DNA from: Rhizobium leguminosarum | GTDB lineage: Bacteria; Pseudomonadota; Alphaproteobacteria; Rhizobiales; Rhizobiaceae | DNA length: 64,000 bases | Direction: 5' to 3' | Assembly (NCBI RefSeq): GCF_017876795.1 | Contig: NZ_JAGIOR010000001.1 | Location: 310,001-374,000, forward strand | Part shown: positions 15,984 to 64,000 of the stretch, one piece after another | Layout of the letters: each line of letters opens with the position of its first letter | How positions within the stretch are numbered: position 1 is the stretch's first letter | Made by a program: the position numbers and the translations under genes | The notes under the pieces: generated by a model | Database searches by the model: none | What the model saw: only the letters and a program-made list of their open reading frames with translations | Told to the model about the DNA's origin: nothing

Positions 15984-16022
15984 AAAAGGGCGTATGGCGA
16001 AAATCCCCTCCGCCATACGCCC
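15984..16022 (-). terminator. Strong hairpin between binding-protein and ATPase genes
   Basis: A perfect 12-bp stem (GGGCGTATGGCG / CGCCATACGCCC) followed by TTTTCTTATT on the minus strand. It should stop most transcripts after the binding-protein gene and let a minority continue into the transporter and enzyme genes, a common way to make excess binding protein. Confidence 0.85.
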
Positions 16023-22165: not shown

Positions 22166-22190
22166 AACGGATGGCTGTCTGGAAGGTTCC
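22166..22190 (-). promoter_or_regulatory. EcfG-type general stress promoter
   Basis: Minus strand: GGAAC-N16-CGTT, an exact match to the alphaproteobacterial EcfG (RpoE2/SigT-type) consensus. The expected start point is near 22158, giving a leader of about 50 nt before the membrane-protein gene at 22109. Confidence 0.75.
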
Positions 22191-44743: not shown

Positions 44744-45703
44744 ATGACTATTGCCGACACGCAGCCGCACATGCAGAGCACGCAGGAGATCGGCACCGCC
44801 TGGGAGCGGATGGTCGCCAGGCGCCGCTTCTACACCATCCTTGGCCTGGTAATTCTTGTTGTGGCTTTCGTGAGCTCCGTCCGCTTCGCCGACGAGAGCA
44901 ATGCCGGTCATTTCTTCGACCGCCTGCCGCACCTTTTCGACTTCCTGAGCTGGCTCATCCCCAAGGATTGGAACGATGTCTGGCGCGCGCTGTTCGACAT
45001 AGCCAACGTGAACGACAAGGGCGGCGAGGAATTCAATTTCGACAAGGGCCGCGTCTACGTCTGGGGTGCCTTCTACATACCCGAATATTTCGAACTCATG
45101 ATCGTCACCATCAACGTGGCGCTGATCTCGACGATCATCGCCTTCATCTTTGCCGTTCCGTTGAGTTTCTTTGCCGCCCGCAACCTGACGAGTTCATGGC
45201 CGCTGCGCATCGTCGCCAAACGCCTGATGGAATTTTTACGCGCCTTCCCCGAGATCGTCATCGCCGGCCTGTTTTCCGCGATCCTGTCGATCGGACCGGT
45301 CGCTGCCATCATCGCCATCAGCCTGCACACGATCGGCGCGCTCGGTAAACTTTTCTACGAGGTGGCCGAGAATATCGACATGAAGCCGCATGAGGGCATG
45401 AAGGCCGTCGGCGCCAACTGGTGGGAGCGCGTGCGCTTCGCCGCTCTGCCGCAAGTGTTGCCGAATTTCACCTCTTATGCGCTGCTGCGCCTCGAGATCA
45501 ACGTGCGCGCCTCGACCATCATCGGCGCCGTCGGCGGCGGCGGCATCGGCGAGGAGTTGAAGCTTTCGATCTCGCGCGGCTTCGGCGCCAAGACGATGGC
45601 GCTCGTTCTGCTGCTGTTCGTGACGATCGTCGCGGTCGACCAATTCTCCGCATGGCTGCGCCGCCGCCTCGTCGGCGAGCACGCCTTCCTCCTGCAACAT
45701 TGA
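44744..45703 (+). CDS. phnE: PhnE1, phosphonate ABC permease
   Basis: A 319-residue permease with a hydrophilic loop after TM1, then the typical PhnE core: PLSFFAARNLTSSWPLR, RAFPEIVIAGLF, and GRALGAxxGxxG-like EGMKAVGANWWERVRFAALPQ plus IIGAVGGGGIGEELK. It forms a heterodimeric channel with PhnE2, encoded 8 bp later. Confidence 0.93.
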   Translation: MTIADTQPHMQSTQEIGTAWERMVARRRFYTILGLVILVVAFVSSVRFADESNAGHFFDRLPHLFDFLSWLIPKDWNDVWRALFDIANVNDKGGEEFNFDKGRVYVWGAFYIPEYFELMIVTINVALISTIIAFIFAVPLSFFAARNLTSSWPLRIVAKRLMEFLRAFPEIVIAGLFSAILSIGPVAAIIAISLHTIGALGKLFYEVAENIDMKPHEGMKAVGANWWERVRFAALPQVLPNFTSYALLRLEINVRASTIIGAVGGGGIGEELKLSISRGFGAKTMALVLLLFVTIVAVDQFSAWLRRRLVGEHAFLLQH

Positions 45704-55811: not shown

Positions 55812-56065
55812 GGGTGCATGGATAGCGCGGGCACGGGACGAGGTCCATATAAAGTTCGACGGGCAAAAAGGATTATGGCGCTGGCGGCGCGACAGCTTTT
55901 TGAATGGCTGTATAATTTTCTCCCTGAACCGAGTTCCGATTTAAGGAATTAAGGAGCGGAGATTCCGCTCACCAAACTGTTACCGATTTGTAACGGTCGC
56001 TCTCCCTTGAAAAACCACATTCGCAGTCACAAATCCATGTCACCGGCGCTTGATCGCGCCGCGGG
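55812..56065. other. Intergenic region upstream of polA and of the sRNA
   Basis: No gene seen. It holds two short hairpins without T-runs: GAGCGGA-TTCCGCTC near 55954-55970 and GTTACCGATTTGTAAC near 55978. A second, tandem AbcR-type sRNA, as known in some relatives, is not apparent because there is no second terminator. Confidence 0.4.
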
Positions 56066-56190
56066 TCTGACTACCGGCTTGTCCCCCGCCGCGTCAGGCT
56101 TGGACAAAGGCCTTATCCCCCTCTCCGGGCCTTTGTCCCCACTTTAAGGTCGCCATGGCCAACCTCCAGGCCATGGCGACTTTTGTTTTT
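56066..56190 (+). ncRNA. AbcR-like (alpha-r15 type) trans-acting sRNA
   Basis: About 120 nt with three hairpins. Hairpin 1 is CTGAC / GTCAG (56067-56097) with loop TTGTCCCCCGCC. Hairpin 2 is an 11-bp stem GGACAAAGGCC / GGCCTTTGTCC (56102-56138) with loop containing ATCCCCCTCTCC. Hairpin 3 is the terminator GTCGCCATGGCC / GGCCATGGCGAC (56149-56180) with loop AACCTCCA and tail TTTTGTTTTT. All loops are anti-Shine-Dalgarno-like. AbcR1/2 of Sinorhizobium and Agrobacterium lie, as I recall, between polA and a marR gene, exactly this setting; they silence ABC-transporter mRNAs with Hfq. The 5' end is estimated. Confidence 0.8.
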
Positions 56191-60724: not shown

Positions 60725-60752
60725 ACGAAACGGCGTGACAGATCGCAATAAC

Positions 60753-60779
60753 AAAAAGGCCGGTTAAAACCGGCCTTTC
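60753..60779 (+). terminator. Intrinsic terminator after the M20 gene
   Basis: AAAGGCCGGTT-AA-AACCGGCCTTT, a near-perfect 11-bp stem about 30 nt after the stop; bidirectional in appearance. The remaining 318 bp up to 61097 show no gene or clear element. Confidence 0.85.
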
Positions 60780-61097
60780 GTCATCCGCTCGCTCAGTGCC
60801 AGTTCATCCGTGGTCAAGGAGAAGCGGGTATTGCAGCCAGACTGCCTCCGAAAGGTTAACGGATCGTTACCGGCACGCGCAGTCGCCAGGTTGTCGAAAG
60901 CACTGCGCCGCATCGATAGAAATTTCCCCGTTCAAGCTACGTTCATCGCGGGCCACTATAAGCCATTGAAAGACAAGGTGAATGATAACGCTCTTGCAAG
61001 TGCGGGGCGGTCGTTCCACCTTTCCTTTCAGACGGCGGATGCCAGGCAAGTGCAGCCGGGCGCAGCCTCAAAATGCGCCTACGAGGAGTGAGAACGC

Positions 61098-61742
61098 GTG
61101 AAAAATCTGTTTGCTAAAATCGCGGCGGCCGGCCTGTTCCTGCTGGCGCCTGTGATCGCGCAGGCTGCCGAGGGCTATTCGACGGCGAACGTCAACATGC
61201 GCGCCGGTCCGAGCACCCGATATCCCGCCGTTGCGGTGATACCCGCCGGCTCTTCCGTCGAGATTCGCGGCTGCCTTTCCGATCTCAACTGGTGCGACGT
61301 GGAGTTCTATGGCGGCCGCGGCTGGGTTTCCGGCCAATATGTGCAGGCTCTCTACCAGCAGCGCCGGATCTATGTCGGTCCGCAATATTACCGTCCGCTC
61401 GGCATCCCGGTCATCCGCTTCAGCGTCGACAATTACTGGGATCGCTACTATCGCAACCGCGATTTCTATCGCGAGCGCGACCGCTGGAGCCGCGGCCCCG
61501 ACTACTATTATCGCGACCGCGACAATCGGGATCGCGACTACCGCGATCGGGACAACCGGGATCGCGATCGGAACTGGCGCGACGGGGATCGTAACCGGGA
61601 CGGCGATAGAGACTGGCGCAATCGAAATGGCGATCAGGATCGGCGCGACGACAATCGACGGGGCGACCGGAGAGATGGAGATCGCAGACCCGATGGCAGG
61701 GATTTTGATTGCCGGCCCGGCGATCCCTCCTGCGACCAATGA
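61098..61742 (+). CDS. Secreted SH3-domain protein with Arg/Asp repeat tail
   Basis: A 214-residue protein starting at GTG (AGGAG about 10 nt upstream). A signal peptide (MKNLFAKIAAAGLFLLAPVIAQA) is followed by one bacterial SH3 domain (TANVNMRAGPSTRYPAVAVIPAGSSVEIRGC...WVSGQYVQALY, about residues 26-90). After a Tyr-rich linker the last 100 residues are a zwitterionic low-complexity tail of RDRD/RDNRD units, ending CRPGDPSCDQ. SH3b domains often bind peptidoglycan. The tail's DNA is a degenerate GATCGCGACCG repeat. Confidence 0.85.
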   Translation: MKNLFAKIAAAGLFLLAPVIAQAAEGYSTANVNMRAGPSTRYPAVAVIPAGSSVEIRGCLSDLNWCDVEFYGGRGWVSGQYVQALYQQRRIYVGPQYYRPLGIPVIRFSVDNYWDRYYRNRDFYRERDRWSRGPDYYYRDRDNRDRDYRDRDNRDRDRNWRDGDRNRDGDRDWRNRNGDQDRRDDNRRGDRRDGDRRPDGRDFDCRPGDPSCDQ

Positions 61743-61787
61743 GATATAAAGGGGCGGCGACGCCGTGCCTTTCGAGGTTTTCCTCAA

Positions 61788-61895
61788 GAAAAAGCCCGGC
61801 GCTCCCAAGAGGGATGCACCGGGCCTGATGTCGATCGGCGCGTGTTGAGGGGAGACGGCCGATCATGCGCGGGACGTGAGGGGTTGTCCCGCTTC
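61788..61895 (-). ncRNA. EcfG-controlled sRNA candidate with two C-rich anti-SD loops
   Basis: Leftward, about 108 nt, 5' end estimated from the promoter. Hairpin A (61892-61869) is a 7-bp stem GCGGGAC / GTCCCGC with loop AACCCCTCAC. Hairpin B (61864-61833) is GATCGGC / GCCGATC with loop containing TCTCCCCTCAAC. The terminator (61824-61789) is GCCCGG / CCGGGC with an inner TCCC/GGGA pairing, then TTTTT. No ORF of coding character fits. Exposed CCCCUC in both loops would pair with ribosome-binding sites. The layout (EcfG promoter, about 105 nt, C-rich loop, terminator) resembles Caulobacter GsrN. Confidence 0.75.
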
Positions 61896-61900
61896 TTCCT

Positions 61901-61926
61901 AAACAATCGCGGCGCCAATTGGTTCC
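61901..61926 (-). promoter_or_regulatory. EcfG-type promoter of the sRNA
   Basis: Minus strand: GGAAC-N16-TGTT (61926 to 61902), one base from the GGAAC-N16-CGTT consensus and identical in spacing to the promoter at 22166-22190. A start near 61895 would place hairpin A almost at the RNA's 5' end. Confidence 0.7.
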
Positions 61927-62236
61927 GATTAGCAGACAGAAGATCTGCGGCGAAAGCAGCGCGCGCATTTCTGCCAACGCCCGAGAAGATCTTCCGCCGG
62001 CTTTGCTCCGTCCTGTCGAGCCGGTATTGCCGCGCGAAAGCATGCACGTGGCAAGCGCAATTCGGGGCGATCCATGTGAGATTTTTGACAGTCGCCATGA
62101 CTGGCATCCATGCCTGCAACAGGCCCCATCGACAATTTGATGTGAGAGCACCGTGATGCTCTTGTCTTGCGGGATTCTTTGTTGCAGTTTTGAGACGTTG
62201 CGGATTCGATTTTGATCCGTTCGAGGCTGGACCCTG
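61927..62236. other. Intergenic region, no feature seen
   Basis: These 310 bp between the sRNA promoter and the small ORF at 62237 hold overlapping open frames on both strands, none with a ribosome-binding site or protein-like composition. I see no strong hairpin or promoter. Confidence 0.3.
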
Positions 62237-62512: not shown

Positions 62513-62636
62513 TCGACGCGTTCTGCTTTGCTTTCCATTATTAACACCCCGTTAAATCGCCGCATTTACAGTTCAGTCGGGTGATCACGGCGCCTGCAAG
62601 AGTGCCGTTATGCGAAGCCGGGCTTCGCGATCGAAC

Positions 62637-64000
62637 ATGGGGTATGACCGGTCGGCGATGGCAGGCAGAGGCAGATCAAGCGACAGAATCGAACCGTCCT
62701 TCAACGGCCGCCCGGCACGCGACGATGACGCGTTTTCGCTCGATGCCGACGATCGCATTGCCGGAAGCCGATCCCCGCGGCGCGGCGGCTCAAAACCGCC
62801 GCCGCAGCGTGCCGCCCCCCGGCGGCGGCGCGAGCCGCGGGAGCGCGAAGGTAGCGGCTTTTTCGGCTTCCTGCGCCGCGTGATCTACTGGTGCGTCGTG
62901 CTGTTCATCTGGGCCGGCATCGGCGTTGCCGGGCTTGTCGTCTACTACGGCTCGCGCATGCCGAGCGCCAGCACATGGGCGATCCCGGAACGGCCGCCGA
63001 ACGTCAAGATCACTGCCGTCGACGGCAGCGTCATCGCCAATCGCGGCGCCACCGGCGGCGAGGCGCTGTCGCTCGAAAACATGTCGCCCTATATTCCGGA
63101 AGCCGTCATCGCCATCGAGGATCGGCGTTTCTATTCGCATTTCGGCGTCGATCCGCTCGGCCTCGGCCGGGCGATCGTGACCAACTTTACGGCTGGCCAC
63201 ATGGTGCAGGGTGGCTCGACGCTGACGCAGCAGCTCGCCAAAAACCTCTTCCTCTCCCCTGAAAGGACGTTGGAACGCAAGGTGCAGGAGGTGCTGCTCT
63301 CGCTCTGGCTGGAGCAGAAATACACCAAGGACCAGATCCTTGCGATGTATCTCAACCGGGTGTTCTTCGGATCGAACGCCTATGGCGTCGAAGCGGCTTC
63401 ACGCCGTTATTTCAATAAATCGGCGCGTGACGTAAACCTCGGCGAGGCCGCGGTGCTGGCCGGCCTGCTCAAGGCGCCGTCGCGACTTTCGCCGGCCCGC
63501 GACCCGGAAGCCGCGAATGCGCGCGCCCAACTCGTGCTTGCGGCAATGCGCGAGCAGGGCTTCATCACCGATTCCGAAGTCAAGACCGCAATGTCGCAGA
63601 CCCCGGCTTCGGCCAAGAGCTATTGGTCGGGGGCCGGACACTACGTCGCCGACATGGTGATGGACGAGCTGCCGGGCCTGATCGGCGACGTCAAGGAAGA
63701 CGTCATCGTCGATACGACCATTGACAAGTCGCTGGAAAAGAAGGCCGAGCAATCGCTGGTCGACGTGCTCGACAAGGAGGGCGGAAAGCTCGACGCTTCG
63801 CAGGCGGCCCTCGTGTCGATCGACGGCACCGGTGCGATCCGGGCGCTCGTCGGCGGCAGAGACTATGCGACGAGCCAGTTCAACCGCGCCGTCAAGGCCA
63901 AGCGCCAGCCGGGCTCCTCATTCAAGCCCTTCGTCTATGCTGCCGCACTGGAGAAGGGGCTGACGCCCTATTCGGTGTTCAATGACGCGCCGATCCGGAT
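62637..64000 (+). CDS. Class A penicillin-binding protein (PBP1A type), 3' end cut by window edge
   Basis: Over 450 residues are visible. A basic, Arg/Pro-rich cytoplasmic tail of about 80 residues precedes one TM (VIYWCVVLFIWAGIGVAGLV). The GT51 transglycosylase domain has its motifs intact: IAIEDRRFYSHFGVDPLG (catalytic Glu), QGGSTLTQQLAKN, and KYTKDQILAMYLNRVFFG. The transpeptidase domain begins before the edge, with the active-site Ser-x-x-Lys region at QPGSSFKPFVYAAAL. It polymerises and cross-links peptidoglycan. Start ATG at 62637; the second ATG at 62658 is possible. Confidence 0.92.
   Translation, partial: MGYDRSAMAGRGRSSDRIEPSFNGRPARDDDAFSLDADDRIAGSRSPRRGGSKPPPQRAAPRRRREPREREGSGFFGFLRRVIYWCVVLFIWAGIGVAGLVVYYGSRMPSASTWAIPERPPNVKITAVDGSVIANRGATGGEALSLENMSPYIPEAVIAIEDRRFYSHFGVDPLGLGRAIVTNFTAGHMVQGGSTLTQQLAKNLFLSPERTLERKVQEVLLSLWLEQKYTKDQILAMYLNRVFFGSNAYGVEAASRRYFNKSARDVNLGEAAVLAGLLKAPSRLSPARDPEAANARAQLVLAAMREQGFITDSEVKTAMSQTPASAKSYWSGAGHYVADMVMDELPGLIGDVKEDVIVDTTIDKSLEKKAEQSLVDVLDKEGGKLDASQAALVSIDGTGAIRALVGGRDYATSQFNRAVKAKRQPGSSFKPFVYAAALEKGLTPYSVFNDAPIR

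Follow-up and report, generated by a model that had tools for sequence, protein, structure and literature searches.

A conserved putative small RNA gene with an EcfG-type promoter, apparently confined to part of the genus Rhizobium

Results

A three-hairpin element lies between an SH3-domain gene and a penicillin-binding protein gene

The window, the whole stretch of 64,000 nucleotides of Rhizobium leguminosarum DNA analysed here, holds two plus-strand genes near its right end. One encodes an SH3-domain protein (61098-61742; Pfam SH3_3, 7e-14) and the other a penicillin-binding protein (PBP) with transglycosylase and transpeptidase domains (62610-63998; Pfam), which extends past the window end. 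Between them, on the minus strand, lies the element described here, with the SH3 gene converging on it and the PBP gene on its upstream side.

Read on the minus strand, the element opens with an EcfG-type −35 motif, GGAAC (61922-61926), followed 16 nt downstream by a −10 motif, TGTT (61902-61905). The putative sRNA gene of about 108-111 nt (61786-61896) takes its 5' end from this promoter spacing and is matched by the covariance model R1 described below. Its predicted fold comprises hairpin SL1, with 7 bp GCGGGAC/GTCCCGC (61892-61886 with 61875-61869) and the loop AACCCCTCAC (AACCCCUCAC, seed 1), and hairpin SL2, with 7 bp GATCGGC/GCCGATC plus three inner pairs (61864-61858 with 61839-61833) and the near-invariant loop CGTCTCCCCTCAACACGC (CUCCCCUCAAC, seed 2). 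An intrinsic terminator (61824-61786), recognised in the sequence, the fold and a terminator scan, follows with the stem GCCCGGTGC/GCGCCGGGC and the run TTTTTCTT (TTTTT). Direct reading of the sequence thus confirms the anatomy given in the first-pass annotation, namely GGAAC-N16-TGTT, two perfect 7-bp CCCCUC hairpins and a five-T terminator.

The region 61780-61900 is predicted to fold at −59.5 kcal/mol (z −4.5; none of 200 shuffles folds that low), and the partition function predicts the CCCCUCA seeds of SL1 and SL2 to be more than 99% unpaired each. Pairs of 7-bp CCCCTC hairpins within 60 nt occur in 0 of 100 shuffles of the window, whereas single CCCCTC hairpins arise 0.75 times per shuffle, and two more are present elsewhere in the window. 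The counts in the window are unremarkable both for GGAAC-N16-YGTT (3 against 0.81 expected, with 4 of 100 shuffles reaching 3) and for CCCCTCA (7 against 6.9), so either motif alone means little. It is conservation, rather than the promoter motif, weak evidence by itself, that decides whether the sRNA gene is real.

Several other elements of the window resemble parts of this one. Further GGAAC-N16-YGTT matches lie at 22166-22190 (minus strand) and 44970-44994 (plus strand), and a perfect 11-bp hairpin with the loop AAAATCCCCTC at 15989-16021 (plus strand). At 56041-56185 (plus strand) an Rfam alpha-r7 sRNA (124.9 bits) holds a CCCCTC-loop hairpin at 56104-56136.

The element is conserved in sequence and structure within part of Rhizobium

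A BLAST search of 61 genomes with promoter and transcript together (61780-61935) gives strong matches in 21 of the 37 Rhizobium genomes, the own genome included; the 24 genomes from the order's other families yield no match below E 0.012. We built the covariance model R1 from 21 sequences, the window copy among them; it matches that copy, itself a model member, at 127.7 bits (61787-61899). One strong R1 copy each (E ≤ 1.5e-14) is found in 80 of 120 Rhizobium genomes, an 81st having a weak hit only. Two samples that overlap, with 297 genomes from the family and 297 from the order, contain no strong hit beyond the genus: the strong hits, 5 and 4, are all in Rhizobium, and the remainder score 38.2 bits or less. 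Because the searches beyond Rhizobium scored no more than 12 candidates in each genome, they may miss more distant family members. A scan for the SL2 pattern likewise matched 61 records, all Rhizobium or Rhizobiales isolates by title, including R. johnstonii 3841, R. leguminosarum, R. phaseoli and R. tibeticum. The covariance search of the three-hairpin model, which the first-pass annotation had proposed across Rhizobiales, bears out conservation in part of the genus.

Conservation extends to the structure. GGAACC is present in every row of alignment A1 (20 rows), and the SL2 loop is near-invariant in both A1 and A2 (21 rows). When the structure of the window transcript is applied to the alignment, 96.1% of cells are paired; sliding the structure lowers this to 35-45%. 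The rows are related, so shuffle counts for this pairing are not probabilities. Compensatory change, with both sides altered, is seen in 6 of 27 pairs, and the SL1 stem occurs in the compensatory variants GCGGGAC/GUCCCGC, GCGAGGC/GCCUCGC, GCGAAAC/GUUUCGC and GCGGAAC/GUUCCGC. Conservation and covariation together support an sRNA gene that is conserved and structured, has an EcfG-type promoter and a terminator of its own, and exposes C-rich loops. As judged from sequence, the reality of this gene is well supported; it is apparently undescribed so far and apparently confined to part of the genus.

The promoter and the SL2 loop are the most constant parts of the element

We gathered 83 distinct copies by a relaxed pattern of the SL2 core, without using the promoter as a criterion, and GGAAC precedes all 83 at fixed spacing. 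Information per column is near random, at 0.18 bits, in positions −60 to −11 before GGAAC, and reaches 2.0 bits in GGAAC itself and 1.73 bits in the three NTT columns. At the −10 position, 62 of the copies carry a GTT type (TGTT 38, AGTT 17, GGTT 5 and the canonical CGTT only 2) and the other 21 an ATT form. Agreement with the EcfG-regulon promoter, GGAAC-N16/17-cGTT, is thus complete for the −35 motif and spacing and looser for the −10 motif, given CGTT in 2 and ATT in 21 of the 83. The promoter is also present in 20 of 20 further stretches around R1 hits, low-scoring ones included, although the script sought the promoter first and some of these genomes overlap the 83. A study of R. etli reports ggAAC-N16-cgTT among units up-regulated by heat or salt (PMC4167512). 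The genome that holds the window encodes NepR (Pfam; nepR at G000:C1:1935106), beside which the translations read as a two-domain regulator resembling PhyR and a sigma factor resembling EcfG, and its phyR is preceded by GGAAC-N16-CGTT.

The two loops differ in constancy. The SL2 core CGUCUCCCCUCAA is found in 75 of the 83 copies, together with four minor variants, the search pattern itself having required a relaxed form of it. The SL1 loop carries CCCCUC in 55 copies, CCCUC in 8, CCCU in 7 and none of these in 13. The earlier claim of two CCCCUC-exposing seed loops therefore holds for the window and most copies, with SL2 alone retained throughout. From these frequencies, SL2 probably serves as the principal seed, with SL1 in an auxiliary role. 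We further note that in two genomes (L011 and L012) the seed is duplicated in tandem within the SL1 loop (CCCCTCAACCCCTCA).

The sRNA maps to one branch of the PBP tree

Gene order is largely kept at the locus, with the sRNA near the PBP and SH3 genes and an M20 peptidase gene after the SH3 gene. In 22 loci searched, the PBP gene is found at 21, the M20 peptidase gene at 20 and the SH3 gene at 17. Proximity to a locus end accounts for one PBP miss and both M20 misses but not for the five SH3 misses, so the SH3 gene seems lost or diverged at those loci. On the far side of the SH3 gene, the window holds a match to the Rfam alpha-r35 sRNA (60748-60884, minus strand; 45.7 bits, cut-off 45), and 15 of the 16 sRNA loci tested have an alpha-r35 match, above the cut-off in 11 cases.

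Of the 40 Rhizobium genomes (out of 120) lacking a strong R1 match, 19 were read at the locus, 18 with no match and one (G030) with a weak one. The PBP gene is there in all 19, and the sRNA is not seen within 1.5 kb upstream; absence was judged by pattern, which could overlook a copy that has diverged strongly. Four of these 19 were read from an EcfG-like promoter (GGAACTTTT, CATT), and each has a 62-aa open reading frame (ORF) behind it at the spot of the sRNA; a fifth locus (L214), read without the promoter anchor, shows no 62-aa ORF. The intact ORF of L218, L219, L224 and L227, all lacking the sRNA, is followed by a second small ORF (MWKRFELWL...). By eye, the window carries a degraded relic of the 62-aa ORF at about 62045-61935 (minus strand).

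A PBP tree drawn from 100 loci and the window, after removal of identical rows and of loci with only short PBP pieces, comprises 72 distinct rows (53 with and 19 without the sRNA). The presence label needs a single change on this tree (support 98/93), and the sRNA maps to one branch. With the midpoint root, this is suggestive of one gain of the sRNA.

The element is unlikely to be a terminator of the SH3 gene or a small-protein gene

The position of the SH3 gene raises the question of whether the hairpins are mere terminators or 3'-UTR structures of that gene, which converges on the element and has a terminator-like call on its own strand at 61869-61892. Yet the constant features belong to the minus strand, which carries the GGAAC motif at fixed spacing in 83 of 83 copies, the near-invariant SL2 loop and the T-run. 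Moreover, no SH3 gene is found beside 5 of 22 copies; at the others, some 90 to 675 nt separate the SL2 core from the end of the SH3 alignment, which often stops short of the C-terminal part. We consider this reading quite improbable. A small-protein gene is hardly credible at all. A 225-aa minus-strand frame is open across the element in the window and stops are infrequent among the copies (33, 23 and 5 of 84 in the three frames), but promoter-to-SL2 distances do not change in multiples of three (64, 66-70, 76 and 77; a distance of 33 in three copies arises because a nearer GGAAC was picked), and sequence changes preserve the stems. Promoter spacing, SL2 loop and stem-keeping changes lead us to reject both readings in favour of an sRNA gene.

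The sRNA is distinct from the GsrN-like RNA of the GSR locus

The first-pass annotation had identified the element as the rhizobial general-stress sRNA, the counterpart of Caulobacter GsrN. That identification is not supported, as the published GsrN-like RNA, ReC64, sits at the phyR-ecfG1 locus and its positional counterpart here is 1.56 Mb away. According to the R. etli work, ReC64 is EcfG1-dependent, lies downstream of phyR-tcrY and measures 88 nt by Northern blot (PMC3892343). Tien et al. (2018) proposed GsrN-like RNAs in Rhizobiaceae by position at the phyR-ecfG1 locus, citing the ReC64 work (PMC5869019); from position and citation, ReC64 would be the GsrN-like RNA meant by their criteria. 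The GSR locus of the host genome has GGAAC-N16-CGTT followed by a predicted C-rich hairpin RNA (L132:4600, plus strand). This RNA contains stretches of GCGCCCCCAACCC and TCCCCTCCC, and we call it the ReC64 counterpart by position alone. The window sRNA lies 1.56 Mb from nepR and this RNA, and R1 does not match at L132:4600. R1 has one stray, weak match at another place in the GSR stretch (L132:11574-11706, 17.2 bits, E 0.04).

An EcfG-type promoter and exposed C-rich loops might nonetheless suggest that the sRNA is the GsrN orthologue of Rhizobium and mainly protects or activates katG-like mRNAs, since GsrN is described as having a general-stress sigma promoter and a C-rich seed loop (PMC5869019). 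The same work describes GsrN-type RNAs as typically near ecfG-nepR-phyR, with C. crescentus itself an exception, and BLASTn hits of GsrN as ending at Caulobacteraceae. Against orthology stand the distance of the window sRNA from the GSR locus, the presence there of the ReC64 counterpart, unmatched by R1, and the lack of conservation of the SL1 seed. By description, the window sRNA is further set apart by its other genomic position, by four rather than six tandem C and by a conserved seed in SL2, where GsrN has its seed in the 5' loop. We therefore regard a GsrN orthologue as highly improbable and return to the reading of a separate sRNA gene. ReC64 does share with it the EcfG-type promoter, the genus and, in its positional counterpart, predicted C-rich loops; locus and length (88 nt) differ.

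Other regulatory RNAs resemble the window sRNA in part. GspR (SmelC775) of S. meliloti is described as a three-hairpin regulatory sRNA with separate seeds, but it lies at a different locus, measures 143-144 nt and reportedly has no known promoter signature; locus and promoter rule it out as the identity of the window sRNA. PmaR of Agrobacterium is a stationary-phase sRNA that binds targets via a C-rich loop (PMC6234868); its single-loop, long-stemmed spoon-like structure, compared by description, differs from the two short hairpins here. Among the papers turned up by literature searches we recognised none as a description of the window sRNA, which may figure under a ReC number in the R. etli table of 89 ncRNAs (PMC2881028). 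None of the 18 newly transcribed R. etli regions in Table 1 of PMC4167512, some of them protein-coding, lies near 158 kb, the position of the copy in G009, a comparison valid only if G009 is R. etli CFN42. Jans et al. report ReC64 as the only down-regulated ncRNA with an EcfG1 motif in ecfG mutants (PMC3892343); their ncRNA set may lack the window sRNA.

The closest known family is alpha-r14

At gathering score, Rfam places no family at the sRNA position. The nearest family is alpha-r14 (RF02344; SmelA075, NfeR1), with a full-length match of 37.2 bits, below the gathering score of 58.8. The two share two hairpins plus a terminator, a similar length (model 123 nt), weak reciprocal matches and C-rich loops complementary to Shine-Dalgarno regions. 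Reinkensmeier et al. describe such RNAs as having three or four hairpins with CCUCCUCCC in each loop and as presumed blockers of ribosome-binding sites (PMC3927594), and NfeR1 of S. meliloti silences ntrB through anti-Shine-Dalgarno seeds (PMC10746234). The window sRNA is without CCUCCUCCC: the unpaired C-rich motifs of SL1 and SL2 carry CCCCUCA, and its terminator loop is short and variable. It differs also in copy number, one against the nine alpha-r14 copies above cut-off in the host genome, and in having an EcfG-type promoter where NfeR1 is described with a sigma70-type one (PMC10746234). By analogy it may work like alpha-r14, although by Rfam's test it is not a member.

The sRNA may have originated as a strongly diverged alpha-r14 (SmelA075-type) paralogue that gained an EcfG promoter and whose seed shifted from CCUCCUCCC to CUCCCCUCA, an origin compatible with our preferred reading that we hold possible though tentative. 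The full-length sub-threshold match points this way, as do matches of the alpha-r14 model at 32-43 bits to 10 of 16 sRNA loci, weak R1 matches to the alpha-r14 copies of the host genome (best 28.4 bits) and the common layout of hairpin, hairpin, terminator. The alpha-r14 motif CCTCCTCCC is moreover present in 11 of the 15 weak R1 loci listed, all in other genera (one of the 15, L086, is not legible). However, every match stays below 58.8 bits, the remaining 6 of the 16 loci give none at E ≤ 1, GGAAC is absent from the 70 nt upstream of each of the nine alpha-r14 copies, and short G+C-rich hairpins could converge.

petB is the best candidate target

The first-pass annotation had pointed to target prediction with the CCCCUC loops. 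Sites at petB and at an L,D-transpeptidase gene recur in 3 of 3 genomes with the sRNA among 20 seed sites fetched, but seed sites as such are equally common where the sRNA is absent. The pattern TGAGGGGA-N3-12-ATG occurs 34, 19 and 23 times in three genomes with the sRNA and 24 times in one without it (reversed seed pattern: 4, 1 and 2, and 2), so that ribosome-binding sites matching the seed are common with or without the sRNA. The seed site of metK is found in all four genomes, and metK is rejected as a specific target because the genome lacking the sRNA has the site too.

The ribosome-binding site of petB, GTTGAGGGGAGAC, is a perfect 13-nt complement of the SL2 loop. Its duplex is predicted at −27.2 kcal/mol; a background of 91 ORF starts called mechanically gives −9.7 ± 2.8, the lowest being −17.4. 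This is no unbiased test, since petB was found via the seed search. Predicted duplexes of the ABC permease (−18.4), L,D-transpeptidase (−16.6 to −17.1) and metK (−16.4 kcal/mol) sites are weaker. The sequence TTGAGGGGAGA occurs four times in the genome, once as the sRNA's own antisense. Of the other sites, only petB has an ORF beginning within 20 nt; at a site on a plasmid, a possible 129-aa ORF begins 50 nt further along.

The distribution of the petB site, which overlaps a Shine-Dalgarno sequence, follows that of the sRNA only partly. In 15 sampled genomes with the sRNA it is full in 9 and reads TTGAGGGGGAC in 5, a second paralogue having been read in one (G630); in 15 genomes without the sRNA it is full in 1 (G025) and shortened to TTGAGGGGG in 14. 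Both site and sRNA follow phylogeny, and we reject petB as a diagnostic co-evolving target. It remains a candidate, as the distribution of the site follows phylogeny as well as function, and sequence complementarity tentatively makes it the best one.

Discussion

These observations lead us to consider it likely that the element is a trans-acting, EcfG-promoted sRNA that blocks ribosome-binding sites and is found only in part of Rhizobium. EcfG, the alphaproteobacterial general-stress sigma factor, would transcribe it from GGAAC-N16-N(G/A)TT, and the transcript of about 110 nt is predicted to fold into SL1, SL2 and the terminator with loops displaying CCCCUCA. These loops, chiefly SL2, would pair with G-rich UGAGGGGA at ribosome-binding sites and thereby block translation of several mRNAs, much as anti-Shine-Dalgarno sRNAs of the alpha-r14 type do, with petB (cytochrome b of the bc1 complex) as the best candidate among them. 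A more far-reaching scenario, which we offer as doubtful, is that a Rhizobium lineage once, at one locus, rewired the alpha-r14 architecture by giving it a new seed and placing it under the stress sigma factor, so that petB and a few envelope and transport genes are shut down under general stress through a direct RNA link from EcfG to respiration.

If transcribed as predicted, the sRNA would give a major group of legume symbionts one more general-stress sRNA gene, at a locus distinct from that of ReC64; its origin appears to be single, and its seed lends itself to a clean test. If so, it would also be an example of how an sRNA layout widespread among rhizobia can acquire a new seed and come under another sigma factor, and petB would be a concrete candidate for how the general stress response may slow respiration.
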